Source: a virus
Virus record (IMG/VR): IMGVR_UViG_3300027851_000033
Coordinates: 1 to 56,471 of that record
DNA length: 56,471 nt
Strand: one strand, 5' to 3'
Every line of letters starts with the position of its first letter. Within the stretch, counting starts at the first letter, position 1. A program made the translations under genes and the position numbers. Shown piece after piece: positions 27,985 to 56,471 of this stretch. The notes beneath the pieces were generated by a model, which was not told the origin of the DNA, did not search any database, and saw only the letters and a program-made list of their open reading frames with translations.

Positions 27985-27993
27985 TAGAGTTGC

Positions 27994-29382: not shown

Positions 29383-29394
29383 CGCTTACCCCTT

Positions 29395-31440: not shown

Positions 31441-31446
31441 GGTGGA

Positions 31447-31812: not shown

Positions 31813-31821
31813 ATTTTCTCC

Positions 31822-32247: not shown

Positions 32248-32249
32248 GG

Positions 32250-32639: not shown

Positions 32640-32784
32640 CATCTATCTCCTTGGGTTGGGGTTCTGCTTGGGTCTGTGGCTGGATATGTCCGACCATGTG
32701 AACGGTTTCGGTTTCCCCCGTTGCCGCTCGGGTTATCTGTAGGGTAAAAGCAAGTTCTGCCGGTGGTGCGGTGAGCTCGATCAT
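32623..32784 (-). CDS. Small phage protein, 53 residues
   Basis: Starts MIELTAPPAELAFTLQITRA with AAAGGAG 5 bases upstream and ends EPQPKEIDDVSNS. It has a beta-like first half and a Gln/Pro-rich tail. The stop lies inside the next gene. The good ribosome binding site and operon position support it. Function unknown. Confidence 0.6.
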   Translation of the reverse strand: MIELTAPPAELAFTLQITRAATGETETVHMVGHIQPQTQAEPQPKEIDDVSNS

Positions 32785-32814
32785 TGTTTCTCCTTTTTCC
32801 AGGTAACTAGTTAT

Positions 32815-32923
32815 TTACTGGGTGCCGTCATAGGCGGCGTAGCAGGCAGCAAGGTGGGTGTCGTACTGGGCAGCGATACACCTCGGCTCCAGTGGCCGTT
32901 TCAGTCACTAAGTACGTAGTCAT
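32815..32923 (-). pseudogene. Small ORF with apparent frameshift
   Basis: ATG at 32923 overlaps the holin stop (ATGA). The first frame gives MTTYLVTETATGAEVYR and then becomes Cys/Arg/Leu-rich up to a stop at 32828. Moving one base gives IAAQYDTHLAACYAAYDGTQ and a stop at 32815, which looks like a natural C-terminus. This suggests a frameshift mutation, a programmed shift or a sequencing error. Function unknown. Confidence 0.35.
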
Positions 32924-33426
32924 TTTTTTCCCAGCCTCTCGATGATCGCGTTCTTTTGGTTGCTGCCTGAACTTGATCCGAAATAGTAAGCCAGTACACT
33001 CGCAAACCCCGTCCCAAGGCTGCCCAGCATGACGAGCAACGCATCGCCTCCTTTTTCCGGTGTTCCAAACTGGAGCATGTACGTCAGGACGCCGAAAAAT
33101 CCGCCAGTGAGCAGTATCGCCAGTGTGCCGGGTATCCAGTCCTTGACCGCAACTTCACGGGCACGGGCGCTGCTGCGGTCTTCCACATCCAGCTTGGCCA
33201 GTTCGATCTTGTTGGTTTCTAGGAATTTCCTGAATTCAATCTCGGCGAGCTTCAGCGAAGCGATTTGATCCGCACTCATCTTCCCGCTGTTCAAAACCTC
33301 GCTCACAGCCTCGATGGTCTTTTCCTGAATGCCGAGCTTATCCGCAATGAATGAAGCCGCCGCACCACCTAACGGCCCGCCTAGCGCCGTCCCTAAAAGT
33401 GGGGCCAGAGCCTTTAGCCAATCCAT
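32920..33426 (-). CDS. Holin, 3-TM type (putative)
   Basis: 168 residues. N-terminal amphipathic/hydrophobic segment LAPLLGTALGGPLGGAAASF, charged central helix (KLAEIEFRKFLETNKIELAK), then two clear membrane segments (WIPGTLAILLTGGFFGVLTY and LLVMLGSLGTGFASVLAYYF) and a basic end. This matches the three-segment holins found in gene transfer agents and phages. It would make pores that release the neighbouring lysozyme. Confidence 0.8.
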   Translation of the reverse strand: MDWLKALAPLLGTALGGPLGGAAASFIADKLGIQEKTIEAVSEVLNSGKMSADQIASLKLAEIEFRKFLETNKIELAKLDVEDRSSARAREVAVKDWIPGTLAILLTGGFFGVLTYMLQFGTPEKGGDALLVMLGSLGTGFASVLAYYFGSSSGSNQKNAIIERLGKK

Positions 33427-33427
33427 G

Positions 33428-33844
33428 TCATTCCCCCTTTGCCATCATGGCCGCCAATCGTTTAGCGCGTTCGCCCACCTGCGTCGCCCATTTGGATGCA
33501 AGCATGCCCCCCGCCGCATCCGCGTAGCGTCCTGCCTTCATCGCCGCCAGCGTGTTCTTGAATCCCAGCAACCCGGCGACGCCCAAGTTAAACGCCATAT
33601 TCACCACGACGCGCTGGCGTACATCATTCAGGCTTCGCCACCACGGAATTGCTTTGTCCAGCGCCGCAGTGGTGCGCGCAATATCGTTATCCAGCAGGTG
33701 CATCGCTTCGTCCTGGCTAATCCCTACATCGTCCAGATTGCGACCAATGCCGATGGTGAGCTTGCCTACCGTGTCACGATAGGGTTTAAGCCTTAACCCT
33801 TCGTCCCGCGTCAGCTCTATTTTCAAATCTAGGCTTTGCATCAC
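33428..33844 (-). CDS. Endolysin, T4-type lysozyme (GH24)
   Basis: 138 residues that cleave peptidoglycan. The catalytic region is visible as RDEGLRLKPYRDTVGKLTIG IGR: Glu in RDEG, Asp in YRDT and Thr in KLTIGIG, the E-D-T triad of this family. LNDVRQRVVVNMAFNLG and GLLGFKNTLAAM follow the usual fold. No signal peptide or membrane anchor, so it needs a holin. One base from the holin gene; its start overlaps the portal stop by 4 bases. Confidence 0.9.
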   Translation of the reverse strand: MMQSLDLKIELTRDEGLRLKPYRDTVGKLTIGIGRNLDDVGISQDEAMHLLDNDIARTTAALDKAIPWWRSLNDVRQRVVVNMAFNLGVAGLLGFKNTLAAMKAGRYADAAGGMLASKWATQVGERAKRLAAMMAKGE

Positions 33845-36420: not shown

Positions 36421-36832
36421 ACGCGACCCCGTCGTCCTTCGTCAGCCGTATCTCTTCCTGTGCCATCAACGCGCCATCCGCGCGTAGCTGCATTTCACCA
36501 ATCGCCGACCTCATCATCTCGCGTTCAGGCGCAGACGGCATCTCCAACAGGTCGGGGATCCCCTCAATGATGATTGAGGCCAGCTTGAACCAGTTGTTGG
36601 GTGACGGCTCCATGCCAAGCACTTCGGCAGCCGTTCGGCACTGGCGCGCCAAATAGTCATCGTTATCGTATTTGTAAGCAGCCGAATCCTTGAGGATGTA
36701 CCAAGCCGCGCCCTTGCGGTAAGCGGGGATAAGAATCAATGCTCTCTCGTCATCAACCCATGTATAGACGGCCAGCAGGTCGCCGTGTTGCCGCGTGAGA
36801 AATGCTTTACTTAGGTCGAGGTTTGCACCCAT
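36413..36832 (-). CDS. Hypothetical head-region protein
   Basis: 139 residues; MGANLDLSKAFLTRQHGDLL start chosen over a GTG 39 bases upstream because AGGAG lies 10 bases before this ATG. It has an alpha/beta look with YTWVDDERALILIPAYRKGA and DDYLARQCRTAAEVLGMEPS. It lies between terminase and portal genes, where small head-packaging proteins occur. No family recognised. Confidence 0.65.
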   Translation of the reverse strand: MGANLDLSKAFLTRQHGDLLAVYTWVDDERALILIPAYRKGAAWYILKDSAAYKYDNDDYLARQCRTAAEVLGMEPSPNNWFKLASIIIEGIPDLLEMPSAPEREMMRSAIGEMQLRADGALMAQEEIRLTKDDGVAYG

Positions 36833-36865
36833 AGACAACTCACTCCTAATGAATATAGGATAGAG

Positions 36866-36882
36866 TGCCACGCATGGCGCGA
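36866..36882 (-). repeat. Late-region 17-base motif, copy 5
   Basis: TCGCGCCATGCGTGGCA on the minus strand in the 68-base gap after the terminase stop, 34 bases before the start at 36832. Confidence 0.8.
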
Positions 36883-36900
36883 GACTTTGGCTGCTTGTCC

Positions 36901-38271
36901 TTACCTAGCCATACCTGAACCGCGCCGTATTAATGGCCTATTCTTTGATTTTTCGCCCTCATACCCCTGCGCGAACTGGCGAAACGCATCGGATGGATGA
37001 GACGCCCAGTCGTGCAATGGCGTCGGCTTGTAGTCGCCAAGCCTGTCATCCCATTCCTGCCGGTAGTTCTCTAGCCCAGCAATTCCATCAGCACACCTGT
37101 CCTCGTCGAAATAGCAAGAAGGAAACACTGATCGCGTCTGCTGAATGCCGATGATCAGGTTATTCACGCGATCAACAACCTCAAACCGCCAGTTCGGGGC
37201 CATTTCCTGAAGCAGATCGAGCATGCTTTTACCCTTCGACGCCAGGTGGCCATGCTCGGCATCATGTGGCAAGTAGTGCGTTCCCCAAAGGTAGTTTTTC
37301 AACTGCATCTGTTGGACGAAATACTCCAACTGCTTCTTGCTTCCCCCCTCATAGTCGATGAAACGATTCTCCATCCCGAGCCGCTGGTGGAACCATATCG
37401 AGGTGCCATCGCCACCCAAATCCCAGAAGGTGTTGACTGGAATGTTCGGGAGGATCGGTATCTTGCAAACACGCCCCTCCAGGCGTGCCGCTTCCATTTG
37501 CTTCGTGTAGTACGCACCGCGAATTGACGGCGATTCCCACCGGCCACGCAGCAGCGCTTTCTGTTCCTCGAGTGGCATGGCTAGCAATGTCTGCCGATAC
37601 CCTGAATCCCGTAGATACGGGTTATCTGCCAGCCGGGCCGGGATAAAGGCTCGCACGCGGGTGAAAACCTCGCCGGTTTCTTCGTCGCGCACCTCGACCT
37701 TGAACCTGGTCGCGGTTCCCTCTGTCGGGATACTCCAGTAATCCTTGACCCACTTGAAGCCGGGTCCGTCCGGGTTCGTGGTCGCACGTACGTAACAGGT
37801 GATCATCGGATCAACAGTCCGCAACCGGGACAGCATGTACAGGTACGGCACCGACGTGGGGAACAGCGTCAGCTCATCCCAACCGATGTATTGAAAGGCG
37901 CGGCCGCGATACTTGAAGCGGTCGCTGTCGTACTGCATGTGCCCCAGTTCAATGCGCGCACCGGACGGGAATGTCCAGACGTGGCCCTGTTTATCGTACT
38001 TGGCACCCGGAATTATCTCTGGATAGAGCTCCTTCGACCGGTCAATCAAGTCCTTCAGGTCGGGGAACGTGCGGCGGAATATGATTGCCTGATACTTGCG
38101 ATTATCAATAGCTCCTTGATGCAGTCCGAGAGCATCAATCAGCAAGGCGTCTGATTTGCCCCCTCCAGCTGCGCCGCCATATAGAACTTCCTCATGGGGA
38201 GACTCAAGGAATAAAGCCTGCCGATCGAATGGCTGCCAAACAATGACTTCCTCGCTGTCAGTCATCGGCAT
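36901..38271 (-). CDS. terL: Terminase large subunit
   Basis: 456 residues; the packaging ATPase/nuclease. The Walker A motif is VLYGGAAGGGKSDALLID (about residues 29-46). FIGWDELTLF-like sequence (FQYIGWDELTLFP) is the Walker B/DE motif, and RATTNPDGPG is the coupling motif. The nuclease part includes FWDLGGDGTSIWF and HYLPHDAEHGH, with the acidic residues expected of the RNase-H-like domain. It overlaps the small subunit gene by 14 bases. Confidence 0.93.
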   Translation of the reverse strand: MPMTDSEEVIVWQPFDRQALFLESPHEEVLYGGAAGGGKSDALLIDALGLHQGAIDNRKYQAIIFRRTFPDLKDLIDRSKELYPEIIPGAKYDKQGHVWTFPSGARIELGHMQYDSDRFKYRGRAFQYIGWDELTLFPTSVPYLYMLSRLRTVDPMITCYVRATTNPDGPGFKWVKDYWSIPTEGTATRFKVEVRDEETGEVFTRVRAFIPARLADNPYLRDSGYRQTLLAMPLEEQKALLRGRWESPSIRGAYYTKQMEAARLEGRVCKIPILPNIPVNTFWDLGGDGTSIWFHQRLGMENRFIDYEGGSKKQLEYFVQQMQLKNYLWGTHYLPHDAEHGHLASKGKSMLDLLQEMAPNWRFEVVDRVNNLIIGIQQTRSVFPSCYFDEDRCADGIAGLENYRQEWDDRLGDYKPTPLHDWASHPSDAFRQFAQGYEGEKSKNRPLIRRGSGMAR

Positions 38272-45850: not shown

Positions 45851-46822
45851 ATGAATGCACCAGCAACTCAAAATCCCATAGCCGCTTTTAGCGGGTTTAT
45901 GGACAAACTAAAACCGCAACTCGCCTTGGCGCTGCCCAAGCACATGACGGCTGACCGTATGGCCAGGCTTGCGCTAACTGCATTCAGTTCTAGCGCACAA
46001 ATGCAGGAATGCTCACCCAGGAGCATTGCTGCGGCAATAATGACAGCCGGGCAGCTTGGGCTTGAGCCGGGGGTTAACGGGGCAGGCTACTTGATCCCCT
46101 ATAAAGGCACCTGCACATTTGTGCCTGGCTGGAAAGGATTGGTTGACCTTGTCTCTCGCTCTGGACGCGGAACGGTTTATACCGGCGTGATTTTTAGAGA
46201 TCAGCAATACACCTTTACCGACGGTGCCAAACGCGACCTAATCATCCACAACGAGACTGATCTTGATGCGCCAGAAGACATGACCCATGCCTACGCGATT
46301 GGTTGGGTACGCGATGCCACCATGCCCATCATTGAATTGTGGAGCGTCGAGAAAATCCGCAAGCACCGAGACAAATACAACAAGGTGGGCAGCAAGCACT
46401 ACAGTTTCCGAGACTGGGAAATGTATTGCCGCAAGGTGCCTCTGCTACAGGTACTCAAGTACATGCCCGCATCCATTGAGATGGCCAATGCCATAGACAT
46501 TAGCAACGCGGCAGAGGCCGGTCGCGGAGCAACGATTGAAAACGGCATCGTCATTGATCCAGATACCGGCGCACCAGAAGAGCCTCAGTTCTACCCGCAA
46601 GAAGATTTTGACAAATCGCTGCCCAACTGGGAAAAGCTGATCCTTAATGGAAATAAAACGCCTGAGCAAATAATCATGGTCGCCAGCTCGAAAGCGCCGC
46701 TTACAAAAGAGCAGAAGGCAGTGATCATGGCCGTCAAGCCTTCGGCAACGGGCGAAATGAGCGAAGAAGAGATTGCCGAAGCGCGTGCCAGAGAACTTGC
46801 TGAATCTAAAAATGGAGCCTGA
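45851..46822 (+). CDS. recT: RecT single-strand annealing protein
   Basis: 323 residues. Conserved RecT features: SFSAQ-like CSPRSIAAAIMTAGQLGLEP, VNGAGYLIPYKGTCTFVPGW KGL, and YSFRDWEMYCRKVPLLQVLK YMP. RecT anneals complementary strands made by a partner exonuclease, here encoded 1 base downstream. AGGAGAAATAAAA leads the ATG. Acidic, Glu-rich C-terminus. Confidence 0.93.
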   Translation: MNAPATQNPIAAFSGFMDKLKPQLALALPKHMTADRMARLALTAFSSSAQMQECSPRSIAAAIMTAGQLGLEPGVNGAGYLIPYKGTCTFVPGWKGLVDLVSRSGRGTVYTGVIFRDQQYTFTDGAKRDLIIHNETDLDAPEDMTHAYAIGWVRDATMPIIELWSVEKIRKHRDKYNKVGSKHYSFRDWEMYCRKVPLLQVLKYMPASIEMANAIDISNAAEAGRGATIENGIVIDPDTGAPEEPQFYPQEDFDKSLPNWEKLILNGNKTPEQIIMVASSKAPLTKEQKAVIMAVKPSATGEMSEEEIAEARARELAESKNGA

Positions 46823-46823
46823 T

Positions 46824-48422
46824 ATGACCTATCAACAACACGACCTAAAGCAAGGCACATTGGATTGGGCGGCCTTTCGAGCTACCCACTTCGGCGCATC
46901 AGAAGCCGCCGCCATGCTAGGACTATCGCCTTACGCGACGCGCAATGATCTTCTCAAACTTAAGTCGACTGGCCTTGCGCCAGAAGTCGATGCAGCCACG
47001 CAGCGCATCTTTGATCGCGGGCATGAAACGGAAATCGGCGGGCGCTCTATGGCAGAGGACTTGATTGATGACGACCTCTACCCGGTCGTCGTTTCCTCCG
47101 GGAGACTATCGGCATCCTGTGACGGATTGACTATGGATGAATCTATCGCATTCGAGCATAAGCAGTGGTCTGTAAAGCTCGCCGACAGCCTGCGTGCTGG
47201 CATTCTCCCGGAACACCACCAGCCACAAGCTCAGCAGGTGATGATGCTCACCAGAGCGCCTCGCTTGCTGTTCATGTGTTCTGACGGCACGCCGGAAAAC
47301 TGCGTGCACTTGTGGGTAGATAGCGATCCAGAATGGCACGATCGCTTGCGCAACGGGTGGCAACAATTCGGCGAAGACTTAGCCAACTACCAACATATTG
47401 AGCATGCGCCCGCTATTGTGGTCGCTCCGATTGATGACCTGCCCGCCCTCACAGTCGAGCTTGTCGGCCAAGTCACTAGCAGCAATCTTGCTTTGTTCAA
47501 GTCGGCAGCACTTGCCAGAATCGAGAGCATTAACACCGATCTGCAAACCGATGAAGATTTTGCAGTCGCCAAAAAAACTGTCAAGTTCCTCGATGACGGC
47601 GAAAAACGGTTAGTACTTGTCAAGCAGCAGGCACTGAGCCAGACCGCCAGCATCGACGAACTATTCCGCACAATGGACGCTTTGCGCGAGGAAATGAAAG
47701 CCAAGCGCATCACGCTGGACAAGCTAGTGACAGCGCGCGAAGCATCCATCAAGATCGAGATCATGCAAGCAGGTAAAGATGCGCTGGCAGTCCATATCGC
47801 CACACTGAACAAGCGGCTGGCGACAGTTCAAATGCCACCGATCGTTGCCGATTTTGCCACCGCCATCAAGGGCAAACGCAATCTCGAATCCATGCGCGGC
47901 GCAGTTGATGACTTGGTGGCGGCAAAGAAAATCGAATCAAATGCTATTGCAGACAAGATACAGATCAACTTGGCAACACTGGATGAAGCCAAAGAATATG
48001 GGTTCCTTTTCAGCGACCGCGCCACACTGGTGGCGAAGGAAGCCGACGATCTTGCGCTCGTCATCAGGTCGCGCATCGCAGACCATAAATCTGCCGAAGA
48101 AAAACGACTAGCCGAAGAACGCGAAAAGATGCGCAAGGAAGAAGAGGCCAAGGCGGAGGCCAAGATCAAGGCAGAACAAGCCGAATCACAGCGAAAGGCA
48201 GCAGCCGAAGCCGCCGCAAAGATCGAAGCCGACCGCAAAGAGTTCGCAGCACCGCCGAAGCAACCTGAAAATGTAACGAAGCGGTCAGAGACTCAAAAAG
48301 TCACGAGAGACCAACTTCTAACTTACCTGGAAAACATTGTGCGCGAGCTAACAACCAATGAGTTGGGCGAGCTAATTGCTCATGCAGATCACATGATTCT
48401 TAACCGAGAGGAGGACGCATGA
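46824..48422 (+). CDS. YqaJ-type exonuclease with coiled-coil C-terminus
   Basis: 532 residues; MTYQQHDLKQGTLDWAAFRA start. The N-terminal 200 residues are a YqaJ/lambda-exonuclease-like domain: GTLDWAAFRATHFGASEAAA, GHETEIGGRSMAED and SCDGLTMDESIAFEHKQW (acidic active site and QxxxQ region PQAQQVMM). The rest is long coiled coil (ESINTDLQTDEDFAVAKKTV; RLAEEREKMRKEEEAKAEAK), like a DUF1351-type helical region. It makes the single strands RecT anneals. A fusion of the two parts is common in phages. Confidence 0.85.
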   Translation: MTYQQHDLKQGTLDWAAFRATHFGASEAAAMLGLSPYATRNDLLKLKSTGLAPEVDAATQRIFDRGHETEIGGRSMAEDLIDDDLYPVVVSSGRLSASCDGLTMDESIAFEHKQWSVKLADSLRAGILPEHHQPQAQQVMMLTRAPRLLFMCSDGTPENCVHLWVDSDPEWHDRLRNGWQQFGEDLANYQHIEHAPAIVVAPIDDLPALTVELVGQVTSSNLALFKSAALARIESINTDLQTDEDFAVAKKTVKFLDDGEKRLVLVKQQALSQTASIDELFRTMDALREEMKAKRITLDKLVTAREASIKIEIMQAGKDALAVHIATLNKRLATVQMPPIVADFATAIKGKRNLESMRGAVDDLVAAKKIESNAIADKIQINLATLDEAKEYGFLFSDRATLVAKEADDLALVIRSRIADHKSAEEKRLAEEREKMRKEEEAKAEAKIKAEQAESQRKAAAEAAAKIEADRKEFAAPPKQPENVTKRSETQKVTRDQLLTYLENIVRELTTNELGELIAHADHMILNREEDA

Positions 48423-48688
48423 AAACCAAGCAACCCACCATTCCAATGCACAACGTCAAGTCAAGCCAGATTGAATCCGTCGGGCATCACGGTGACACGC
48501 TGGCCGTGAAGTTCAAATCTGGAGGCACCTATCACTATCACGGCATCACTCCCGCTCAATTCGCTGACCTGCAAAAAGCTGAGTCGGTAGGCGCTCACCT
48601 GGGCAAATTCATCAAACCACATCACAAATTTACAAAACTAGAAGACCCATCATCGAGTAGTAATAACACCCACCCAAAGGAGTATTGA
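48419..48688 (+). CDS. KTSC-domain protein
   Basis: 89 residues. MHNVKSSQIESVGHHGDTLAVKFKSGGTYHYHGI is the KTSC core (V-x-S-S-x-I, L-x-V-x-F-x-x-G-x-x-Y-x-Y). In this family the domain is implicated in RNA-related or recombination contexts, with no firm role. Good Shine-Dalgarno (GAGGAGGA). Overlaps the exonuclease stop by 4 bases. Confidence 0.85.
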   Translation: MKTKQPTIPMHNVKSSQIESVGHHGDTLAVKFKSGGTYHYHGITPAQFADLQKAESVGAHLGKFIKPHHKFTKLEDPSSSSNNTHPKEY

Positions 48689-48689
48689 A

Positions 48690-49043
48690 ATGACAAAGCC
48701 CATTAATGAAAATATCCGCGACGTTCGTATCGAGGACGAAAACGGCGACCTGTATTCAATCCTTGATATTGCCGGAGCGAAGCTGTCGGAACTCATCGCC
48801 GCCGTGGTCAACACCAACAAGGCCGGAAGTTTAACCATGAAGATCGACATCAAGCCTAGCACGGCAGGTGCCCTCGCCGTCAAAGGAGATGTGAATATCA
48901 AAAAACCCAAGGGCTTGCCACCTGAGTCGCTTTTGTGGCCAACACCAGAAGGCAACCTCATGTCCGACGATCCGCGACAGACCAAACTGGAACTCAAGCC
49001 CGTTGCCGTCGAGCCCCGCGAACTCAAGCAAGCTGCCAATTAA
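48690..49043 (+). CDS. Hypothetical recombination-operon protein
   Basis: 117 residues, alpha/beta with LTMKIDIKPSTAGALAVKGD and VNIKKPKGLPPESLLWPTPE. This pattern is common in phage proteins encoded between exonuclease and DUF2303 genes. AAGGAG precedes the ATG. Function unknown. Confidence 0.7.
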   Translation: MTKPINENIRDVRIEDENGDLYSILDIAGAKLSELIAAVVNTNKAGSLTMKIDIKPSTAGALAVKGDVNIKKPKGLPPESLLWPTPEGNLMSDDPRQTKLELKPVAVEPRELKQAAN

Positions 49044-49078
49044 GTTTCGGTCAGAGCACAAATTTTAAGGAACCAAAA

Positions 49079-49930
49079 ATGAATGATGCACCAAACCCAC
49101 GCGGCGACGCCGAAACGATGATCCGCGCCGGAACAGCCCTCACCCTTCCCAGCTCCCCGCTCGATGGCATCCAACTGAAAAACGGCATCCCTTACACAGT
49201 TATTCCCAAAGAATACATCGTGCACAGCCTGGAGGATCTGCTACCGGCCCCATCGCGAAAACGCGCCACCGTCACCACATCTACTACGGAAAGCTTCATC
49301 GCTTATGTAAAAAAGCACGGTAGCCCTGATGAGTGCGTTATTTACGCCAACATTGACAGCCAGAAGTCACACTGCACACTCGAAGCTGTGATCAATGATC
49401 ATGCCGCCGAATTCCAACAATGGCGCGACCATCGCTGCACCTTCGCGCCAGCCCTGTCCGTCGAATGGAAGCGATGGCTTGGAAGCAACGATTCCAAGAT
49501 GAATCAAGCGGACTTCGCTACCTGGCTCGAAGATAACTTGGGGGATGTCGCCAACGTCCCCGGCATGCCGACAGGCGCTCAAATGCTCACCCTGGCGTTG
49601 GCTTTCGAGGCGACGGCCGATAAGAAACTAAAAAGCCGCATCAATCTGCAATCGGGCGGCATGCGCTTTGATTACGTAGATGACGAAGACAAGGAAACCC
49701 GCACCAGCATGGAGGTTTTTCAGCGATTCACTCTCGGTCTGCCTGTGTTTGAAGGTAGTAGCGACGCCTATCCCATTGAAGCGCGCCTGAAATATCGGGA
49801 AAACAGCGGAAAATTAACATTCTGGTACGAGTTAATACGCCCAGATCGCGCCTTCAAGACGGCTGTTAATTCTTCCCTTGAGCAAATAAAAGCCGCCACC
49901 GGATTCATGATTCTGCAAGGGACGCCCTGA
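49079..49930 (+). CDS. DUF2303-like phage protein
   Basis: 283 residues from MNDAPNPRGDAETMIRAGTA; AAGGAACC precedes. Features FIAYVKKHGSPDECVIYANI, FEATADKKLKSRINLQSGGM and AYPIEARLKYRENSGKLTFW resemble DUF2303, found next to recombination and SSB genes in phages. Probably a DNA-metabolism accessory; function unknown. Confidence 0.75.
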   Translation: MNDAPNPRGDAETMIRAGTALTLPSSPLDGIQLKNGIPYTVIPKEYIVHSLEDLLPAPSRKRATVTTSTTESFIAYVKKHGSPDECVIYANIDSQKSHCTLEAVINDHAAEFQQWRDHRCTFAPALSVEWKRWLGSNDSKMNQADFATWLEDNLGDVANVPGMPTGAQMLTLALAFEATADKKLKSRINLQSGGMRFDYVDDEDKETRTSMEVFQRFTLGLPVFEGSSDAYPIEARLKYRENSGKLTFWYELIRPDRAFKTAVNSSLEQIKAATGFMILQGTP

Positions 49931-49933
49931 ATC

Positions 49934-50410
49934 ATGGCCAGCGTTAATAAGGTGATTCTGGTTGGTAACCTGGGTAAAGACCCCGAGTCGCGCTATATGC
50001 CCAATGGTGACGCCGTGGTGAATATCACGCTGGCGACCACCGATACATGGAAAGATAAAGGGACAGGAGAAAAGAAAGAGGCGACCGAATGGCATCGCGT
50101 GGTTTTTTTTCGCAAATTAGCTGAAATTGCGGGGCAATACCTGAAAAAAGGCTCACAGGTGTATATCGAAGGCGCGCTGAAAACTCGCAAGTGGGAGAAA
50201 GACGGACATACCAACTACACCACCGAAATCTTCGCTGATTCGATGCAGATGCTGGGTAACCGACAAGGGATGAGTTCAGGTAGTGGTTCAAATGACTACC
50301 CTACGCGCGAGAGCAGTTATGGGGCTACCACTACCGCCACAGGCAAACCAGACCCTGCAGCACAGGCGAGTAGCAACTTCAATGATTTCGATGATGAAAT
50401 TCCATTCTAG
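49934..50410 (+). CDS. ssb: Single-stranded DNA-binding protein
   Basis: 158 residues. The OB-fold is clear: [57 protein letters not shown] and [12 protein letters not shown]. The acidic C-terminal tip ([10 protein letters not shown]) recruits partner proteins. It protects single strands during phage replication and works with RecT. Three bases after the DUF2303 gene. Confidence 0.95.
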
Positions 50411-50942: not shown

Positions 50943-51393
50943 GCAGGCAGTACGCACGCTGGCCGCGATTGATGAGGCGCTTGGCATCGGTGATGACGGA
51001 TGCGGCGACCCCGACCAGACGCTGCACGCGATTGCAGAACTGAAGGCTCTCCAAAAAATGGAGGCCCCACAACTGCGCAAGATTCACCCGCTAGATTTTC
51101 CGATTGAAGTGTTTTTGGCTGACCTGACAACACGAACGGCAAACATCATCCGAGCCGAATTGGCAGGGTTCGCCTCATTCGCCGGAACAGGAACATTCGA
51201 CATTGAGCCGCCATTTACTGTGCGCCATCTGTGCATGTTCAGCCGTAGTGAAATTCGAAAGTGGCCGAACTTCGGGCGCAAGAGTTTAAACGAAGTGGAG
51301 GAAATGCTGCGGGCTAGAGGCTTGCAGTTGTGGGAGAAGCACGACGATAGATCGCTGCGCCTGCTACGTGAACATAAGGAGTATTTCAAATGA
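50917..51393 (+). CDS. RNA polymerase alpha-CTD-like small protein
   Basis: 158 residues from MTDYKTLFEQAVRTLAAIDE, with GGAGAACTGGA upstream. Residues about 85-150 match the RpoA C-terminal domain pattern: TARTANII, then TVRHLCMFSRSEIRKWPNFG and RKSLNEVEEMLRARGLQL, the (HhH)2-type fold that contacts UP elements and activators. The N-terminal half is a different helical region. It may act as a decoy or transcription modulator; this is inference. Confidence 0.7.
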   Translation: MTDYKTLFEQAVRTLAAIDEALGIGDDGCGDPDQTLHAIAELKALQKMEAPQLRKIHPLDFPIEVFLADLTTRTANIIRAELAGFASFAGTGTFDIEPPFTVRHLCMFSRSEIRKWPNFGRKSLNEVEEMLRARGLQLWEKHDDRSLRLLREHKEYFK

Positions 51394-51647
51394 CGACCGT
51401 GACCAAGGAAATGATCGGCGCTGCGCATGACGTGACGCTCGAAAGTGGCGATGGACGCAGCGCGATGAAAACGTGTGCGACCTGCAACGCCAGCCACAAG
51501 AACACCGTTGAGCGCGTGCTGCGCTGCATGGGTTGCGTGGCAAAGCCGAGCGGCAACAGCAACTGGCGGCCATTGGTGCCTAACGATGCAGTTCAGGGGC
51601 GCGAGGCGGCCTTATCGGCGGAGCGTCCCTCTCGAACGCAGGGTTAG
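51390..51647 (+). CDS. Small zinc-knuckle protein reading into attC
   Basis: 85 residues starting MTTVTKEMIGAAHDVTLESG, overlapping the upstream gene by 4 bases. TCATCNASHKNTVERVLRCMGC gives two CxxC pairs, probably one zinc site. Codons after Asn64 are attC sequence. Joined instead to the sequence after CTAACG at the left end, the frame would stop after three codons (PNVK), a plausible native end. So the last part is probably foreign. Confidence 0.6.
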   Translation: MTTVTKEMIGAAHDVTLESGDGRSAMKTCATCNASHKNTVERVLRCMGCVAKPSGNSNWRPLVPNDAVQGREAALSAERPSRTQG

Positions 51648-51649
51648 AA
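51578..51649 (+). other. attC site 1 (phage-array junction)
   Basis: R'' GCCTAAC, spacer GATGCA, L'' GTTCAGGG, matching arm CCCT...GAAC, R' GTTAGAA. CTAACG (51580-51585) is shared with the left junction, so its R'' is probably half phage DNA. Confidence 0.75.
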
Positions 51650-51652
51650 ATC

Positions 51653-51748
51653 ATGGCGATAGTGAAAACTGGCGATTGCCCCTATTGCGGAGCGCCGAAC
51701 AAGCGCAAATGTTTTTGTAAACGGAGATCGAGATGCAAGAACTACTGA
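51653..51748 (+). CDS. 31-residue Cys-rich cassette protein
   Basis: MAIVKTGDCPYCGAPNKRKC followed by FCKRRSRCKNY. The CPYCG...CFC set suggests one zinc site. It starts 4 bases after the R' box of attC 1 and overlaps the next gene by 16 bases. Function unknown. Confidence 0.5.
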   Translation: MAIVKTGDCPYCGAPNKRKCFCKRRSRCKNY

Positions 51749-51999
51749 TGATGTACGACCCGGCAACCGGAATGCAAAAGCCCTACCCGAGCCACGCCGA
51801 GCAATGGCGGAAGTTTCACGGCGAGATGGCATGGCTGTTCAATCCTTGGACAGGCACAAGGCGGCACGCTCTTGATGTTGGTAGCGACACCTTTGGGCGT
51901 GGTATTCGCATAGAGGATTGCTTAGAGCGCGCGGCAGTGATGAGCCAAGCGCAGGGATCAAGCCAACAAATACGCGGAGGAATTCTCCGTGACGCATAA
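51733..51999 (+). CDS. Cassette protein of unknown function
   Basis: 88 residues, MQELLMMYDPATGMQKPYPS to GGILRDA. WLFNPWTGTRRHALDVGSDT is conserved-looking. GGAG 8 bases upstream. Its TAA stop is inside the R'' box of attC 2, a common cassette feature. No family recognised. Confidence 0.65.
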   Translation: MQELLMMYDPATGMQKPYPSHAEQWRKFHGEMAWLFNPWTGTRRHALDVGSDTFGRGIRIEDCLERAAVMSQAQGSSQQIRGGILRDA

Positions 52000-52075
52000 C
52001 GTAGAGCTAAGGGGCCGAGCCGCAGGCGAAGGTCCCGTGGAGCGAAGCGGAACGAACTTGAGCGCCGGGTTAGGC
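51994..52075 (+). other. attC site 2
   Basis: R'' GCATAAC, internal palindrome around GAGCCGCAGGCGAAGG, R' GTTAGGC. R'' does not match the 5' border of its own cassette (GTTAGAA), unlike all later sites. Confidence 0.85.
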
Positions 52076-52098
52076 GGCGCAGACATTGGAGACAGCAA

Positions 52099-52350
52099 AT
52101 GAGACAACCTCACGAATTGATGGCAGATGACTATTGCGGACCCTCGAAAGTGATTAACTTGGGCCAGATTCAAAACCGCGATGGGTTCAGATTCATCGGT
52201 ATCGACAAGCACGGCAAAGAGCATTTTTGCATTGTCCGCAAGGGTGACGGCGGATCGTTTTACATGAACAGCAACACGGCGCTGTTTGAGGATTTGTGCG
52301 GATGGCTGCCCGATCCTGATGCGCCGACTTTTGGAGGTAGCGAAACATGA
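52099..52350 (+). CDS. Cassette protein of unknown function
   Basis: 83 residues. MRQPHELMADDYCGPSKVIN, then GFRFIGIDKHGKEHFCIVRK and FEDLCGWLPDPDAPTF: a small alpha/beta protein without signal peptide. It is followed by a second gene overlapping by 4 bases. No family recognised. Confidence 0.6.
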   Translation: MRQPHELMADDYCGPSKVINLGQIQNRDGFRFIGIDKHGKEHFCIVRKGDGGSFYMNSNTALFEDLCGWLPDPDAPTFGGSET

Positions 52351-52556
52351 GCATTCACGTTTGCAAATGCACTCACAACGGGCGCGAGGAATACCACCTG
52401 CGTTACCCCGGAATGACCGAAGCGGAGGCGCGAGAACTGGCCGACAGAATCAACGGCGGATGGCTCCGGCCACCAGAGAAGCCGAAGGGCGGATTGGCCG
52501 AAGCGGTCAAGATAGCAAGGGGCGGGGATGCACCGATACCGTTCAAGAGATCGTGA
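52347..52556 (+). CDS. Small cassette protein
   Basis: 69 residues. MSIHVCKCTHNGREEYHLRY, PGMTEAEARELADRINGGWL and a basic C-terminus. GGAGGTAGCGAAAC before the ATG. Ends 1 base before the R'' box of attC 3. Function unknown. Confidence 0.6.
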   Translation: MSIHVCKCTHNGREEYHLRYPGMTEAEARELADRINGGWLRPPEKPKGGLAEAVKIARGGDAPIPFKRS

Positions 52557-52557
52557 C

Positions 52558-52635
52558 CCCTAACGCCGGAGTTAAGGCGGCTGCCGAAGGCAGTCCGGCG
52601 ACCGAAGGGAGCGAACCTTGAACGACTTGTTATGC
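52558..52635 (+). other. attC site 3
   Basis: R'' CCCTAAC; central perfect palindrome CTGCCGAAGGCAG; R' GTTATGC. R'' pairs at 6/7 with the 5' border GTTAGGC of its cassette. Confidence 0.9.
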
Positions 52636-52755
52636 GCTGACGGTTACTGGTGCGTGGTTTGTGGGCGATACCTGCCCGACGATGACGGGGTGGTTGTTCA
52701 CGACGACGTGCCACACCCGGAGATGACTTTCGACGAAGAGGAAAGGCCGCAATGA
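52618..52755 (+). CDS. Small Cys-containing cassette protein
   Basis: 45 residues from TTG inside the preceding attC: MNDLLCADGYWCVVCGRYLP, then DDDGVVVHDDVPHPEMTFDE. A CxxC pair and acidic tail. A later TTG (52627) would also do. Overlaps the next gene by 4 bases. It resembles small phage/cassette proteins; function unknown. Confidence 0.5.
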   Translation: MNDLLCADGYWCVVCGRYLPDDDGVVVHDDVPHPEMTFDEEERPQ

Positions 52756-52946
52756 GCGAGAACGGAATTACCCACTACTGCCTCGGCAACGGGGAGTTGA
52801 AGTGCGACGGCTGCGGGCAGGAAAAGAACTGGCAGACGTTGAACCAGATGCCCGACGCGCTGCGGAAGACGCTGCAAGCGCAGGCGCAACGGATCGACGA
52901 CACCGACTGCATCCTGTCCGGGCGCCCGTGGTATGTGGGCGCATAA
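52752..52946 (+). CDS. Small zinc-ribbon-like cassette protein
   Basis: 64 residues. MSENGITHYCLGNGELKCDG CGQEKNW gives C-x7-C-x2-C metal-site residues, followed by the helix MPDALRKTLQAQAQRIDDTDC. The TAA stop lies in the R'' box of attC 4. Function unknown. Confidence 0.6.
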   Translation: MSENGITHYCLGNGELKCDGCGQEKNWQTLNQMPDALRKTLQAQAQRIDDTDCILSGRPWYVGA

Positions 52947-52996
52947 CGCTTGAATTCAGCGGCGGCGAAGCCGTCCGCTGGAATGATTAGTTGGGC
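52941..52996 (+). other. attC site 4
   Basis: R'' GCATAAC is exactly complementary to the 5' border GTTATGC of its cassette. Arms AATTCAGCGG and CCGCTGGAAT; R' GTTGGGC. Short, 56 bases. Confidence 0.92.
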
Positions 52997-53021
52997 CTCG
53001 ACGGCCCGGAAAGGAAACGAC

Positions 53022-53381
53022 ATGAGCTTGCACGATGAAATTCGGAGTGCCCAGATACGAGCGGGCGAGGACGCGGTGATTCGCAACCTGGAACGCTTGG
53101 GATTCGCGCCATCTGCGCCGCAAACGGAAAGCCGACTGGAAGTGCTGGAGCGCGAACACCAAGAGTTTTTCGAGCGCTGGCATGCCGAGCGACGCAAACG
53201 CGAAGAGCTGGAGGATGCGATACGCGACATATTCCCGGCAGCGCACCGGCTGGCACTGGAGTTGGAATGCCTGCTGCTCGACACCAAGGACACAGCAGCG
53301 GTAAGCAAGTGGTGGGACTCGGCAAACGAAGCGCTGGAACAGTGGCGCGAGTTCTGCCGGGAAGAGACGCACAACGCTTAG
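53022..53381 (+). CDS. Coiled-coil cassette protein
   Basis: 119 residues, MSLHDEIRSAQIRAGEDAVI. Charged helices (LEVLEREHQEFFERWHAERR KREELEDAIRD) suggest coiled coil; then a second helical part ends in EEALEQWREFCREETHNA-like sequence. AAAGGAAACGAC before the ATG. The stop lies within attC 5. Similar proteins occur in phages. Function unknown. Confidence 0.65.
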   Translation: MSLHDEIRSAQIRAGEDAVIRNLERLGFAPSAPQTESRLEVLEREHQEFFERWHAERRKREELEDAIRDIFPAAHRLALELECLLLDTKDTAAVSKWWDSANEALEQWREFCREETHNA

Positions 53382-53431
53382 GTGAGGCGCGGGCGGCTTT
53401 TCGCCCGTCGCGCTCGACCGATGGGTTAGGG
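53369..53431 (+). other. attC site 5
   Basis: R'' GCACAAC pairs 6/7 with its cassette border GTTGGGC. Palindrome GGGCGGCTTTTCGCCC; R' GTTAGGG. Confidence 0.88.
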
Positions 53432-53460
53432 GTGCGGTGGATAACAGAAAGGATGAAGCG

Positions 53461-53724
53461 ATGAAATCACAGATGCGCATGGAGTTTGAAGCACGACATG
53501 GGTTTGAGGTTTGCGACGACATGGATATTCAAACATCCGTTGCATGGGACAACTGGAAAGAGGCGTGGAAGGCGGCAATAGATCACGCCCGCTACAAAGC
53601 CAACGAGTGCGCCGACAACAACGCATACACGCCTGCGCAGAAACGGGCGCTTGGCGCTTGGCTGCAACGGGTTGCACTGACGGTCGAAGACGAAACCCCT
53701 AACGCTGAGGTAACCGGCGCATGA
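53461..53724 (+). CDS. Cassette protein ending in attC
   Basis: 87 residues from MKSQMRMEFEARHGFEV; AAAGGATGAAGCG precedes. Central WDNWKEAWKAAIDHARYKAN helix. The last codons TPNAEVTGA come from attC 6, a pattern shared by several cassette genes here. No family recognised; similar proteins are common in environmental cassettes and phages. Confidence 0.65.
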   Translation: MKSQMRMEFEARHGFEVCDDMDIQTSVAWDNWKEAWKAAIDHARYKANECADNNAYTPAQKRALGAWLQRVALTVEDETPNAEVTGA

Positions 53725-53775
53725 CAGCAAGCGAAGCGCCGCTGGCAGGCGTCCGCGTTGATTGATTAGTTATGT
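53697..53775 (+). other. attC site 6
   Basis: R'' CCCTAAC exactly complementary to its cassette border GTTAGGG. Internal imperfect palindrome (CAGCAAGCGAAGCGCCGCTG); R' GTTATGT. Confidence 0.9.
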
Positions 53776-53800
53776 TTCTTTGCGTAGATACACAAACAGC

Positions 53801-53829
53801 TTGACATTGTTTGATTGCGTGACTACACT
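53801..53829 (+). promoter_or_regulatory. Cassette promoter
   Basis: TTGACA, 17-base spacer, TACACT, 26 bases after the R' box. Very similar to the promoter at 55339-55367. It would make this cassette expressed independently of an integron Pc. Confidence 0.7.
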
Positions 53830-53860
53830 AACAATATCAACAACGCAAACGGAGAACGAA

Positions 53861-54058
53861 ATGAAAACAGCCTACGAACTTCTGATGACCGCCCCGGATA
53901 GCCAAGTGAAGCGGGCACAGATCGCCTTCAGGGCGGTGGCCGATGGTCAGTGGCTTGACGCGGCGCACAGCCTGCGCAATGCGGCGAACGAGGAAACCGG
54001 CCAGTGGGCGAACGAAGCCCGCGAACTGGCGGAACACTGCGAACAGGTGGCAGCGTGA
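53861..54058 (+). CDS. Small helical cassette protein
   Basis: 65 residues, MKTAYELLMTAPDSQVKRAQ onward; Ala/Glu-rich helices (WLDAAHSLRNAANEETGQWA). GGAG before ATG; 32 bases after a strong promoter. First gene of a three-gene cassette with one-to-four-base overlaps. Function unknown. Confidence 0.65.
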   Translation: MKTAYELLMTAPDSQVKRAQIAFRAVADGQWLDAAHSLRNAANEETGQWANEARELAEHCEQVAA

Positions 54059-54213
54059 TGTGGAAGGTTGAACGAGACAAGGTTGTTGTGTGCCGCCAAG
54101 TGGTCGCCCCCTACATCGTCGGGACGTACCGCTGGCGGTGGGTTGCGGTTGTTGTTGCGTGGGCGCTGGCGCATGGTTGGTGGGGTTGTTATGTGAGCGA
54201 GGCCGACGAATGA
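54058..54213 (+). CDS. Small membrane cassette protein
   Basis: 51 residues, MWKVERDKVVVCRQVVAPY, then one hydrophobic helix (WVAVVVAWALAHGWWGCY) and an acidic end. TGATG overlap with the upstream gene and ATGA overlap with the next. Function unknown. Confidence 0.6.
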   Translation: MWKVERDKVVVCRQVVAPYIVGTYRWRWVAVVVAWALAHGWWGCYVSEADE

Positions 54214-54386
54214 ACGCGCAACGTGGCGGGCCGGGACGCGGCCAAGGACGCAAGCCGATAGCCAAGGACGGCGAACTGATGCGCGCCCGCCCGGTGCGAA
54301 TGACCGACGAGGAATGGGCGAAGTGCAAACGCCTCGGCGGGGCAGCATGGGTGCGGGCGAAGATCAAGGCTGCCCGTGAAACATAA
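54210..54386 (+). CDS. GRGQGRKP-type small basic protein
   Basis: 58 residues. MNAQRGGPGRGQGRKPIAKD, then RPVRMTDEEWAKCKRLGGAA WVRAKI. A basic N-terminus and a helix pair resemble small ribbon-helix-helix-like or nucleic-acid-binding proteins of phages. A relative lies in cassette 11 (55712-55897). TAA stop inside the R'' box. Confidence 0.65.
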   Translation: MNAQRGGPGRGQGRKPIAKDGELMRARPVRMTDEEWAKCKRLGGAAWVRAKIKAARET

Positions 54387-54449
54387 CGTGTAGGTAAGCG
54401 GCCGTGAGCGGCCTTATTGCGAACGGTCCGCTTGACCGTAGGGTTAGAG
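54381..54449 (+). other. attC site 7
   Basis: R'' ACATAAC exactly complementary to its cassette border GTTATGT. Palindrome AAGCGGCCGTGAGCGGCC; R' GTTAGAG. Confidence 0.92.
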
Positions 54450-54461
54450 GTCAACTTGACT

Positions 54462-54776
54462 ATGGCAAATTTACTGGAACAACAACGATACATCACGGAC
54501 GTTATTGCCCCCGCTGCCCGTAAAGCGGCTTCTGGATACCCACGCGCTCACCAGATGCGAAGCGAGAGGCAAGACGGATACAACATGCTCCACGGACGAC
54601 CGCACGGCTTCAAGTGGCGACCGATCTACAGCGTTACCGTTGAGTTCGAGAGCGCAGAAAAGGCGCAGGAGTTTTTCGAGTCGCTGCACGAGAGTGGGAT
54701 TGTGACCTCTAACGCAGAGTTCAGGCCGCTGGACGCGGCTTCATCGCGGCCAGTCGCGCCTGGAACGACGGGTTAG
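54462..54776 (+). CDS. Cassette protein ending in attC
   Basis: 104 residues from MANLLEQQRYITDVIAPAAR. RPIYSVTVEFESAEKAQEFF looks like a small beta-alpha fold. C-terminal SNAEFRPLDAASSRPVAPGT is coded by attC 8. No clear Shine-Dalgarno. Function unknown. Confidence 0.6.
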   Translation: MANLLEQQRYITDVIAPAARKAASGYPRAHQMRSERQDGYNMLHGRPHGFKWRPIYSVTVEFESAEKAQEFFESLHESGIVTSNAEFRPLDAASSRPVAPGTTG

Positions 54777-54778
54777 AG
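54707..54778 (+). other. attC site 8
   Basis: R'' CTCTAAC exactly complementary to its cassette border GTTAGAG. Internal GCCGCTGGACGCGGC; R' GTTAGAG. Confidence 0.92.
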
Positions 54779-54811
54779 CGCCGCTGACGACAATAAAGAA
54801 AGGAACGAATC

Positions 54812-55009
54812 ATGACCGAAGACCAGTACAAGAACGCGAAGCAATTGAAGTCCGAAATCGGCAACTACAAGGGGGCGCTTGATTCCCTGATTGACGAGCG
54901 GAACTACCTCGATTTGCCACAGGAGATGTACGACCGCCACATGACCGAAAAGAAAGCGTTCCTAGAAGCGGAGCTGGCGCGGCTGGAGGCGGCATTTGCT
55001 GCGCTCTAA
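54812..55009 (+). CDS. Coiled-coil cassette protein
   Basis: 65 residues: MTEDQYKNAKQLKSEIGNYK, then helices EKKAFLEAELARLEAAFAAL. AAAGGAACGAATC before ATG. TAA stop in the R'' box of attC 9. Function unknown. Confidence 0.65.
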   Translation: MTEDQYKNAKQLKSEIGNYKGALDSLIDERNYLDLPQEMYDRHMTEKKAFLEAELARLEAAFAAL

Positions 55010-55074
55010 CGCCCGAAATGAGGGGGCGGACGCAGGTTTATCGCGGACGCTCCCTCTCGATTGACTGGTTCGGC
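55004..55074 (+). other. attC site 9
   Basis: R'' CTCTAAC exactly complementary to its cassette border GTTAGAG. Arms GCGGACGCAGG and CGCGGACGCTC region; R' is the unusual GTTCGGC. Confidence 0.9.
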
Positions 55075-55110
55075 GGCGTCTTACCAGCGCCGACTTTTGA
55101 AAGGGTGGTG

Positions 55111-55248
55111 ATGAAGCCATTTTTGATAGCTGTGCTGTTGTTCACTTCCGGCTTCGCCGTGCTGCTGTTTTTTATACTCTGGTGGGAACGCGGATTTGAT
55201 GGTGCATGGGCGACCTTTGAGCGATTCGCAGAGGATGTATTGAGATGA
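55111..55248 (+). CDS. Small membrane cassette protein
   Basis: 45 residues: MKPFLIAVLLFTSGFAVLLF, FILWWERGFDGAWATFERF. One long hydrophobic helix then a cytoplasmic amphipathic tail. GAAAGGGTGGTG before the ATG. Function unknown. Confidence 0.65.
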   Translation: MKPFLIAVLLFTSGFAVLLFFILWWERGFDGAWATFERFAEDVLR

Positions 55249-55249
55249 C

Positions 55250-55307
55250 GCCGAACGCCGAAATCACCGGCCGCCGGTAGGCGGTCCGGTGGATTGTGGA
55301 GTTAGGT
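55250..55307 (+). other. attC site 10
   Basis: R'' GCCGAAC exactly complementary to the rare border GTTCGGC. Arms CACCGGCC and GGTCCGGTG region; R' GTTAGGT. The matching of the unusual base shows the rule is not chance. Confidence 0.92.
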
Positions 55308-55338
55308 TGCACGTTGATTGCTGTAACACAAATAATGC

Positions 55339-55367
55339 TTGACATGGCTTGATTGATGTATTACAGT
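55339..55367 (+). promoter_or_regulatory. Cassette promoter
   Basis: TTGACA, 17-base spacer, TACAGT. Similar to the promoter at 53801. It lies 48 bases before the first gene of its cassette. Confidence 0.7.
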
Positions 55368-55415
55368 AACAACCATGCGATGCACGTTGCAGCGCAGACA
55401 ACCAAGGAGCCGAAA

Positions 55416-55715
55416 ATGCAAAACCTGACCGCCGAACAAATGATGCAGCGCCCGGAAGTGCTCGCGTACCTGAATGAGTTGGCGGCCGATATTGCGGCAC
55501 ATGGCGGCCTTGAAGGAAAGACGATGGAGCAAGCCGTACAAGAGGCGCACAACCGCCGCCAGTTGTTCGCGGCAGAGATGGTGTCCGGTGAGACGCGCCG
55601 CGCAAAGATGGCACGGAAGGCTATTTGCACGTCTGTTTGGATTGATGTGACCGTGCAGCACTCGAAGGAAAAAATGGTGCAGGCGTGCGAATGGATCGAG
55701 GCGGGGCGCGCATGA
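55416..55715 (+). CDS. Cassette protein of unknown function
   Basis: 99 residues from MQNLTAEQMMQRPEVLAYLN, with AAGGAGCC upstream. Helical N-terminal half; KMARKAICTSVWIDVTVQHS and KEKMVQACEWIEAGRA follow. The next gene overlaps by 4 bases. No family recognised. Confidence 0.65.
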   Translation: MQNLTAEQMMQRPEVLAYLNELAADIAAHGGLEGKTMEQAVQEAHNRRQLFAAEMVSGETRRAKMARKAICTSVWIDVTVQHSKEKMVQACEWIEAGRA

Positions 55716-55897
55716 AGGCCAAGGCTCCACACGGAGGCCCAGGAAGGGGTCAAGGCCGCAAGCCACTGCCGGACGAGGAGCGCACCGTTGTTGTGACGGT
55801 GCGACTCACCCAAGCGCGGAGGGACAAGCTGCGGCGCTTGGGCGCGCACTGGCTTGCAAAGGCGGTTGATCGGGCGAAAGAGCCTGATGCAACCTAA
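55712..55897 (+). CDS. GRGQGRKP-type small basic protein
   Basis: 61 residues: MKAKAPHGGPGRGQGRKPLP, then RTVVVTVRLTQARRDKLRRL GAHWLAKAVDRAK. TVVVTVRLT as strand followed by two helices fits a ribbon-helix-helix-like fold. Relative of 54210-54386. TAA stop in R'' of attC 11. Confidence 0.7.
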   Translation: MKAKAPHGGPGRGQGRKPLPDEERTVVVTVRLTQARRDKLRRLGAHWLAKAVDRAKEPDAT

Positions 55898-55960
55898 CGC
55901 ATAGGTAAGCGGCCTTCGCCGGTCTTATGGCGAAGGTCGCGCTTGACCGCCGGGTTGGGC
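55892..55960 (+). other. attC site 11
   Basis: R'' ACCTAAC exactly complementary to its cassette border GTTAGGT. Palindromic arms AAGCGGCCTTCGCC and GGCGAAGGTCGCGCTT; R' GTTGGGC. Confidence 0.92.
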
Positions 55961-55997
55961 GGCGTATCACCAGCACCGACTTTTGAAAGGGAACGAT

Positions 55998-56312
55998 ATG
56001 GCAACACAGAAGGAAGCAACGCTGCGGCTCTACACGGCCCTGAACGCACCGGCCAAAGCAGGCAGGGTGTGGGTGCAGTACGAGCGCAAAACCATTGACG
56101 CGGCACTGGATGTGCTGAAGCAGTTGATGGTGGCGCAGGGCTACGAATTCCGCCCGGCTGACGCGCTGCCTGCGGAGCGCGAGTGCTGCGGGACTTTCCC
56201 CGGCTCCAAACACCGGAGCACATGCGCGGCCAAGACGCCCAACGCAGAAGTGAGCCGATCTGCGCCGCTTTTGGCGCAGGTCGGCTCGACTGACGGGTTA
56301 GAGCGCGGTTGA
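55998..56312 (+). CDS. Cassette protein ending in attC
   Basis: 104 residues from MATQKEATLRLYTALNAPAK. ERKTIDAALDVLKQLMVAQG helix; CCGTFPGSKHRSTCAAK. C-terminal TPNAEVSRSAPLLAQVGSTD is attC-coded and the frame runs past the R' box. AAAGGGAACGAT upstream. Function unknown. Confidence 0.6.
   Translation: MATQKEATLRLYTALNAPAKAGRVWVQYERKTIDAALDVLKQLMVAQGYEFRPADALPAERECCGTFPGSKHRSTCAAKTPNAEVSRSAPLLAQVGSTDGLERG
56237..56303 (+). other. attC site 12
   Basis: R'' GCCCAAC exactly complementary to its cassette border GTTGGGC. Palindrome AGCCGATCTGCGCC...GGCGCAGGTCGGCT; R' GTTAGAG. Confidence 0.92.
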
Positions 56313-56326
56313 CACGGAGAAAGAAC

Positions 56327-56471
56327 ATGACACCGGAAGAAGCTGACAAGGCACAGAACTGGCTCGGCATGGACGGAGCCACGGCTTGGCACTTGATAGA
56401 CCGGCACGCCGATAACTGGAATGAGGTGGGCGAGTTGATGAATTCCTGGCTACGGGCGAACGTCCTTGCAG
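56327..56471 (+). CDS. Cassette protein, 3' end outside window
   Basis: At least 48 residues: MTPEEADKAQNWLGMDGATA, then WHLIDRHADNWNEVGELMNS WLRANVLA, open at the right edge. GGAGAAAGAAC before the ATG. Its cassette starts with GTTAGAG, so its attC should begin CTCTAAC. Function unknown. Confidence 0.6.
   Translation, partial: MTPEEADKAQNWLGMDGATAWHLIDRHADNWNEVGELMNSWLRANVLA

Follow-up and report, generated by a model that had tools for sequence, protein, structure and literature searches.

The IMG/VR virus record IMGVR_UViG_3300027851_000033 (56,471 bases, analyzed whole and referred to here as the window) carries twelve attC sites, the recombination sites of integron cassettes, in tandem at 51578-56303, at the end of a phage early operon. 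Integrons are familiar from bacteria, where they serve as platforms for gene capture and where cassettes of this kind spread antibiotic resistance. We consider it very likely that the window holds the cassette array of a phage-borne integron, with its genes carried backwards relative to their attC sites. It is also likely, at a somewhat lower level of confidence, that phages own an integron system of their own, comprising a group of integron integrases (IntI), an attI site, and a private pool of cassettes with reversed open reading frames (ORFs) that is rich in counter-defense genes, expressed as the distal part of the early operon, and exchanged among unrelated phages and not with bacterial integrons.

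attC sites and the polarity of their genes

The sites were first listed by hand and then searched for with a covariance model (R1), built on the strand opposite to the ORFs from five window sites and two sites of another phage. R1 recovered 12 of 12 sites (E values of 6e-20 to 4e-3) with zero other matches across the 56 kb, and seven of the window sites lay outside the training set and are thus independent finds. An earlier note, made from the letters of this DNA alone, had proposed twelve attC sites in this interval, and the covariance search bears it out, with exactly twelve sites that do not behave as random palindromes. A hand-written structure finder returned nine array sites at a threshold that gave none in 20 shuffled genomes. 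As read from the sequence, all twelve sites consist of an R box, a 5-nucleotide spacer, a 3-bp arm, one extrahelical base, a stem, and a variable loop (the arm of site 6 is imperfect), and their R/L boxes and extrahelical base are as in the aadA attC. No Rfam family matched the array sites. Two other scans were discarded: a strict RYYYAAC...GTTRRRY search of the whole record found 1 of the 12 sites plus three chance pairs, and an arm-complementarity search ignoring the extrahelical base failed on the array sites. RNAalifold on a MAFFT alignment gave no structure because of a one-base misregister, and the structure was therefore set by hand.

The window sites are inverted relative to the ORFs, and the mobile unit consists of an attC and the ORF that follows it. 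In the class 1 integron of a P1 phage record, all five sites that R1 finds lie on the sense strand of the resistance genes, whereas here R1 marks the opposite strand, and each gene therefore belongs to the attC before it, not to the one after it. In 24 bacterial chromosomal integrons, the R1 strand relative to intI was canonical, save for one weak stray match. ORFs of bacterial integrons lay on the attC strand in 66 cases and opposite to it in 27, whereas those of intI-bearing phages were opposite to it by 89:10 (Fisher P value = 6e-19, intI phages versus bacteria); the ratio was 22:2 in phages without an intact intI (window included) and 9:0 in the window itself. A codon-usage test in the intI phages likewise placed ORFs pointing towards intI by 67:4. 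The usual criterion (which is not strictly defining) of an ORF oriented like its own attC and read from the promoter Pc does not describe the window array. An unusual placement of intI relative to attC was considered and dropped, since attC and intI are arranged canonically and it is the ORFs that are flipped. Two phage contigs, L008 and L009, each have oppositely oriented attC sites flanking the recT region, and ORF strands in L009 are mixed (two canonical, three opposite).

Cassette borders were compared by setting R' of site k against R'' of site k+1. Over the ten intervals after site 2, eight matched at 7/7 and two at 6/7, the same counts as in the earlier note, and the odd border GTTCGGC was paired with GCCGAAC as claimed there; the R'' match of site 3 (start 52558) was 6/7, and the first interval (sites 1 and 2) matched at 4/7. 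The permutation P value for self-matching was about 1e-5 or less, computed with the site 3 R'' displaced by 2 bases. An extra cassette across the record ends, overlooked in the earlier note along with the phage nature of the record, the inverted polarity, and the kindred arrays in other phages, also closes (CTCTAAC at 119-125 against GTTAGAG of site 12, 7/7). The self-matching cores support the view that each cassette was once a circle closed at its own core. They are not the notable feature that they were taken for, as 7/7 self-matches occur in 75 of 111 intervals of bacterial integrons and in 90 of 124 intervals of phage intI arrays: border self-matching is an ordinary integron property, not peculiar to the window array.

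Cassette turnover, integrases, and cassette pools in related phages

Comparisons of near-identical phages have shown that arrays of this kind gain and lose whole cassettes at the canonical cut. In contigs L114, L115, and L116, from three metagenomes, L115 matches the other two at 99.9% over 4,084 bases around intI and at 99% over 2.1 to 2.5 kb upstream, and whole cassettes differ at three places. Every break in co-linearity falls at the AA^C of an R'' box read on the gene-sense strand, equivalent to the canonical G^TT of the complementary strand, and what is gained or lost in L114/L115 is an attC plus the gene on its 3' side. Relative to L112, L113 has one extra cassette exactly between GCACAA of the last gene and C|TTAAATTC (the putative attI) and a second at an R'' box. 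The differences in L114/L115 and L112/L113 reveal the cut point and the polarity without any model. Another pair, L141/L144, has long flanks in common and different arrays, with co-linearity resuming at attI. The capture history proposed in the earlier note, repeated capture of single cassettes, is thus upheld in part: whole-cassette growth and shrinkage are seen in these relatives, and capture of strictly one cassette at a time is a candidate history for the window array.

The window cassette gene at 53861-54058 led to L095, an intI-bearing contig with tail-fiber-J that carries this gene at 92% DNA identity and in which cassettes are followed by an intI-like ORF and then a phage integrase. 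That ORF scores 474.6 bits against the integron-integrase family (cut-off, 265). A search of IMG/VR with an IntI profile gave 258 relatives, of which 80 were fetched and examined. In these 80 viral intI loci, 176 of 177 attC matches share one orientation, mostly upstream of intI, and the ORFs nearby include tail fiber, tape measure, primase, helicase, RecE, and ParB. Similar arrays were present in 7 of 20 records chosen among those with a related RecT, and intI lies in the same element as the array in L095, L102, L114, and L115. In the IntI tree, a single group (SH-aLRT = 99) unites 57 distinct phage IntIs and excludes 34 bacterial ones; 67 of the 80 loci were assigned to it when near-identical copies were counted. 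A search of 369 genomes of the class gave no IntI more than 65% identical to that of L115. The interval separating intI from the last cassette contains a conserved motif, YAAC|TTAAATTCAACGACACC, found in a loose form in 42 of 53 loci; the form AAC|TTAAATTC is located 5' of intI, and the motif, a putative attI, behaves as such a site. Absence of a LexA box was rejected as a phage trait, the difference (1/53 phage versus 7/49 bacterial) being too weak. In L045, intI is broken at about 14570-15093, where the N-terminal part of IntI is fused in frame to the C-terminal end of another tyrosine recombinase; this chimera looks like a deletion joining intI to the following phage int.

Phage and bacterial cassette pools are apparently separate, as judged from small samples of each. 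A relative in another phage array was found for 50 of 149 phage cassette ORFs, and a relative in 23 bacterial arrays was found for 1 of the 149, which by position is the intI of L119 itself, counted as a cassette ORF because attC sites flank it on both sides. Conversely, of 91 bacterial cassette ORFs, none had a relative in phage arrays and 4 had one in another bacterial array. Family matches among 90 cassette ORFs of intI phages included 13 to DNA-modification families (C5, 5; N6/N4, 3; Dam, 2; Mom, 2; and D12, 1), 4 to PAPS reductase, 2 to DHH, and 1 to Acb2/Tad1 (a hairpin match).

In integrons, the substrates of IntI are double-stranded attI and the bottom strand of attC in its folded form. 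We propose that IntI, encoded by the host, a prophage, or a different phage, folds these sites on their canonical bottom strand and inserts cassette circles at attI, beside intI, where the ORF would then point at intI, in line with the early genes. With the ORFs reversed relative to attC, every gene is oriented like the phage early operon, and the early promoter would transcribe all cassettes and, where present, intI, with a few cassette promoters adding to this. The IntI serving the window phage may have been lost or may be supplied by a co-resident prophage or the host. In this way, phages could trade small early-expressed genes, including DNA methylases and other genes of presumed counter-defense function, and phage cassettes would not be expressed from the Pc of bacterial integrons.

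The window phage and its cassettes

The window record is a temperate podophage of the P22 type, because genes for a P22-type portal, major capsid, large and small terminases, LexA-like S24 repressor, RecT, exonuclease, single-stranded DNA-binding protein (SSB), and phage tyrosine integrase are present, so that the structural, packaging, repressor, and integrase genes of a temperate phage are all represented. The portal resembles those of Parlo, Itty13, and PBC5 at 41 to 45% identity. A portal-based scan for sister phages gave one near fragment, and a megablast of the array region against phage records gave no match. A single ORF of 4615 amino acids (aa) occupies 1424-15271 on the minus strand and resembles the giant protein of Bcep22-like podophages; with such P22-type temperate podophages of ~60 kb, the window shares portal, capsid, and this ORF.

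The array lies between the early operon and the phage integrase gene (Table 1). The record ends join, as the ORF starting at 56327 crosses the end, in frame, to base 135; no terminal repeat was found at the ends, and the record is an apparent closed circle opened inside a cassette gene, which affects the reading of features near either end. The array is made up of twelve whole cassettes, each consisting of an attC and the ORF downstream with borders at gene-sense AA^C, plus the attI-side border across the record ends. The gene left of attC1 is probably the remnant of an older cassette because of its identity to the L139 cassette gene.

Searches of Pfam, PHROGs, and NCBIfam found no resistance gene in the window cassettes, in agreement with the earlier note, and phrog_34498 was the sole named family. 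The cassette 6 protein was not found in 369 bacterial genomes, in a search without a positive control. From sequence reading, cassettes 6 and 10 have sigma70-like promoters in the ORF direction (TTGACA-TACACT, cassette 6's own, and TTGACA-TACAGT, respectively). The ORFs at 54210-54386 and 55712-55897, at the ends of two cassettes, encode small proteins that are related to each other and contain GGPGRGQGRKP, a motif that L095 and L096 also have. A Burkholderia phage Mica homologue in L100 (6001-6252) is 64% identical to a window cassette gene, and R1 found no attC in the matching locus, L097.

Table 1. Features of the window; the strand given for attC sites is that of the canonical attC top strand, opposite to the ORFs
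Feature	Position	Strand	Remarks
Cassette 12, right part	1..124	+	ORF to 135; R'' CTCTAAC 119-125 = attI-side array border
Phage-type tyrosine integrase (phrog_1), not IntI	149..1147	-	end 24 bp from array border
Major capsid (PF13252), P22-type portal (PF16510), large terminase	26869..38271	-	family matches; marks record as phage
Early genes upstream of array: recT, exonuclease, KTSC-like, DUF2303-like, ssb	45851..50410	+	KTSC-like and DUF2303-like from sequence reading alone
Gene left of attC1	51390..51577	+	86% DNA identity to cassette gene in intI-bearing phage contig L139
attC1	51578..51649	-	R1 52.0 bits
Cassette 1	51584..51999	+	attC1 + ORF 51733-51999, 88 aa
attC2	51994..52075	-	R1 31.4 bits
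Cassette 2	52000..52563	+	attC2 + ORFs 52099-52350, 52347-52556
attC3	52558..52635	-	R1 18.5 bits
Cassette 3	52564..52946	+	attC3 + ORF 52752-52946
attC4	52941..52996	-	R1 37.2 bits
Cassette 4	52947..53374	+	attC4 + ORF 53022-53381
attC5	53369..53431	-	R1 69.9 bits (training set)
Cassette 5	53375..53702	+	attC5 + ORF 53461-53724
attC6	53697..53775	-	R1 18.4 bits
Cassette 6	53703..54386	+	attC6 + ORF 53861-54058 (phrog_34498) + ORF 54210-54386
attC7	54381..54449	-	R1 74.6 bits (training set)
Cassette 7	54387..54712	+	attC7 + ORF 54462-54776
attC8	54707..54778	-	R1 42.9 bits
Cassette 8	54713..55009	+	attC8 + ORF 54812-55009
attC9	55004..55074	-	R1 41.8 bits
Cassette 9	55010..55255	+	attC9 + small membrane-like ORF 55111-55248
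attC10	55250..55307	-	R1 52.4 bits (training set)
Cassette 10	55256..55897	+	attC10 + ORFs 55416-55715, 55712-55897
attC11	55892..55960	-	R1 69.8 bits (training set)
Cassette 11	55898..56242	+	attC11 + ORF 55998-56312
attC12	56237..56303	-	R1 70.5 bits (training set)
Cassette 12, left part	56243..56471	+	attC12 + ORF starting 56327; continues at window base 1

Alternative explanations and relation to known integrons

Several observations weigh against a phage-borne integron, or against a system private to phages. IntI is absent from the window record, and the clade attI motif is missing from the array's attI-side border; current activity of the window array is therefore unproven. The polarity counts are affected by noise in the simple-rule ORF strand calls, which also called 29% of bacterial intervals reverse, and the codon-usage test had low power in bacteria (7:6). 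When 45 bacterial IntIs were added to the tree, the phage group largely persisted but with one sequence from a metagenome-assembled genome (MAG) inside it, which on inspection sits in a prophage-like region, and support in the larger tree was weak unless four others (one bacterial and three viral IntIs) were included. About 12 of the 80 IMG/VR IntIs fall among bacterial IntIs. One of these contigs, L148, has an IntI that groups with bacterial IntIs, yet its cassettes (7062-10951) are inverted, which suggests a separate origin of the arrangement. In L292 (7702-8700), a prophage-like region of a bacterial MAG, a phage-group IntI lies among SbcC/SbcD-like genes with one weak attC.

The absence of IntI and of the attI motif fits another possibility, namely, that this lineage never had intI and acquired its cassettes from the phage pool by insertion at a secondary (attG-like) site, catalyzed by the IntI of the host or another phage, the polarity standing as described and the phage being only a user. 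The window array is by definition a cluster of attC sites lacking an integron integrase (CALIN), as it has neither an intI in the element nor an attI beside intI, and within a related bacterial order an IntI is present in 80 of 200 genomes. However, the cassettes belong to an inverted phage pool that elsewhere lies beside phage IntIs, and one deletion removing attI-intI would be equally simple; we regard a lineage that never had intI as a possible but tentative explanation. Specialized transduction, in which aberrant excision of a prophage carried along part of a host's chromosomal integron as a one-off passenger, would account for an array adjoining a phage integrase gene, and Vibrio and Shewanella prophages are known to carry such host pieces (PMC9892861). 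This origin is very unlikely and largely refuted, because the ORFs are inverted relative to attC, unlike in host integrons, kindred arrays recur in the RecT-related records and in many contigs with a phage-group IntI, and the cassette genes are common to other phages and not to bacterial arrays. That the hairpins between early genes are conserved terminators or serve replication is hardly credible: attC-like hairpins may be weak terminators and the genes are all co-oriented, but the aadA-like boxes and extrahelical base and the self-matching cores speak against it, and whole-cassette insertions and deletions at the exact cut site refute it for L114/L115 and L112/L113.

The phage-borne integron that we favor shares with class 1 and chromosomal integrons the attC anatomy, the G^TT cut point, self-matching cores, tandem cassettes, the IntI family (TIGR02249), and an attI next to the intI start. 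It differs in that the ORFs run towards intI, antisense to attC and in line with the early operon, and in that its cassette pool is apparently separate. Treponema-type reversed integrons (PMC3607928) also have intI and cassette genes on one strand; there, however, intI points towards attI and the array is 3' of intI, whereas in the phage arrays it is 5' of intI, the attC sites have their canonical placement relative to intI, and the ORFs are flipped. In the survey of Qi et al. 2023 (PMC9892861), 10,705 genomes yielded 3 complete integrons, one In0, and 17 CALINs (21 phages), with examples including TJE1, PH101, P12002L, V. anguillarum p16, Shewanella M16-3, and P1, and attC activity was shown for three lytic phages; like the window and its relatives, these are attC arrays in phages, some with DNA methylases. 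The text consulted does not describe an inverted polarity, and a phage IntI group and a phage attI are likewise absent from it. R1 detects none of the TJE1 sites, and the polarity comparison therefore does not extend to TJE1. A literature phrase search on phage integrons, with preprints and subscription papers outside its reach, returned only an unrelated editorial, and within that scope an inverted, phage-specific integron appears to be new.

Dozens of other phage contigs carry related arrays that have an integrase of their own, and together these look like a gene-exchange system private to phages. If this is true, a phage integron with flipped cassettes would explain why small early genes and anti-restriction genes are common to unrelated phages, and the phage gene pool would be mechanically separate from the bacterial one. 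It would also offer a system, open to testing, in which the reshuffling of cassettes is tied to the infection cycle, and the strand of ORFs relative to attC polarity provides a sequence rule for finding such genes in virus collections.

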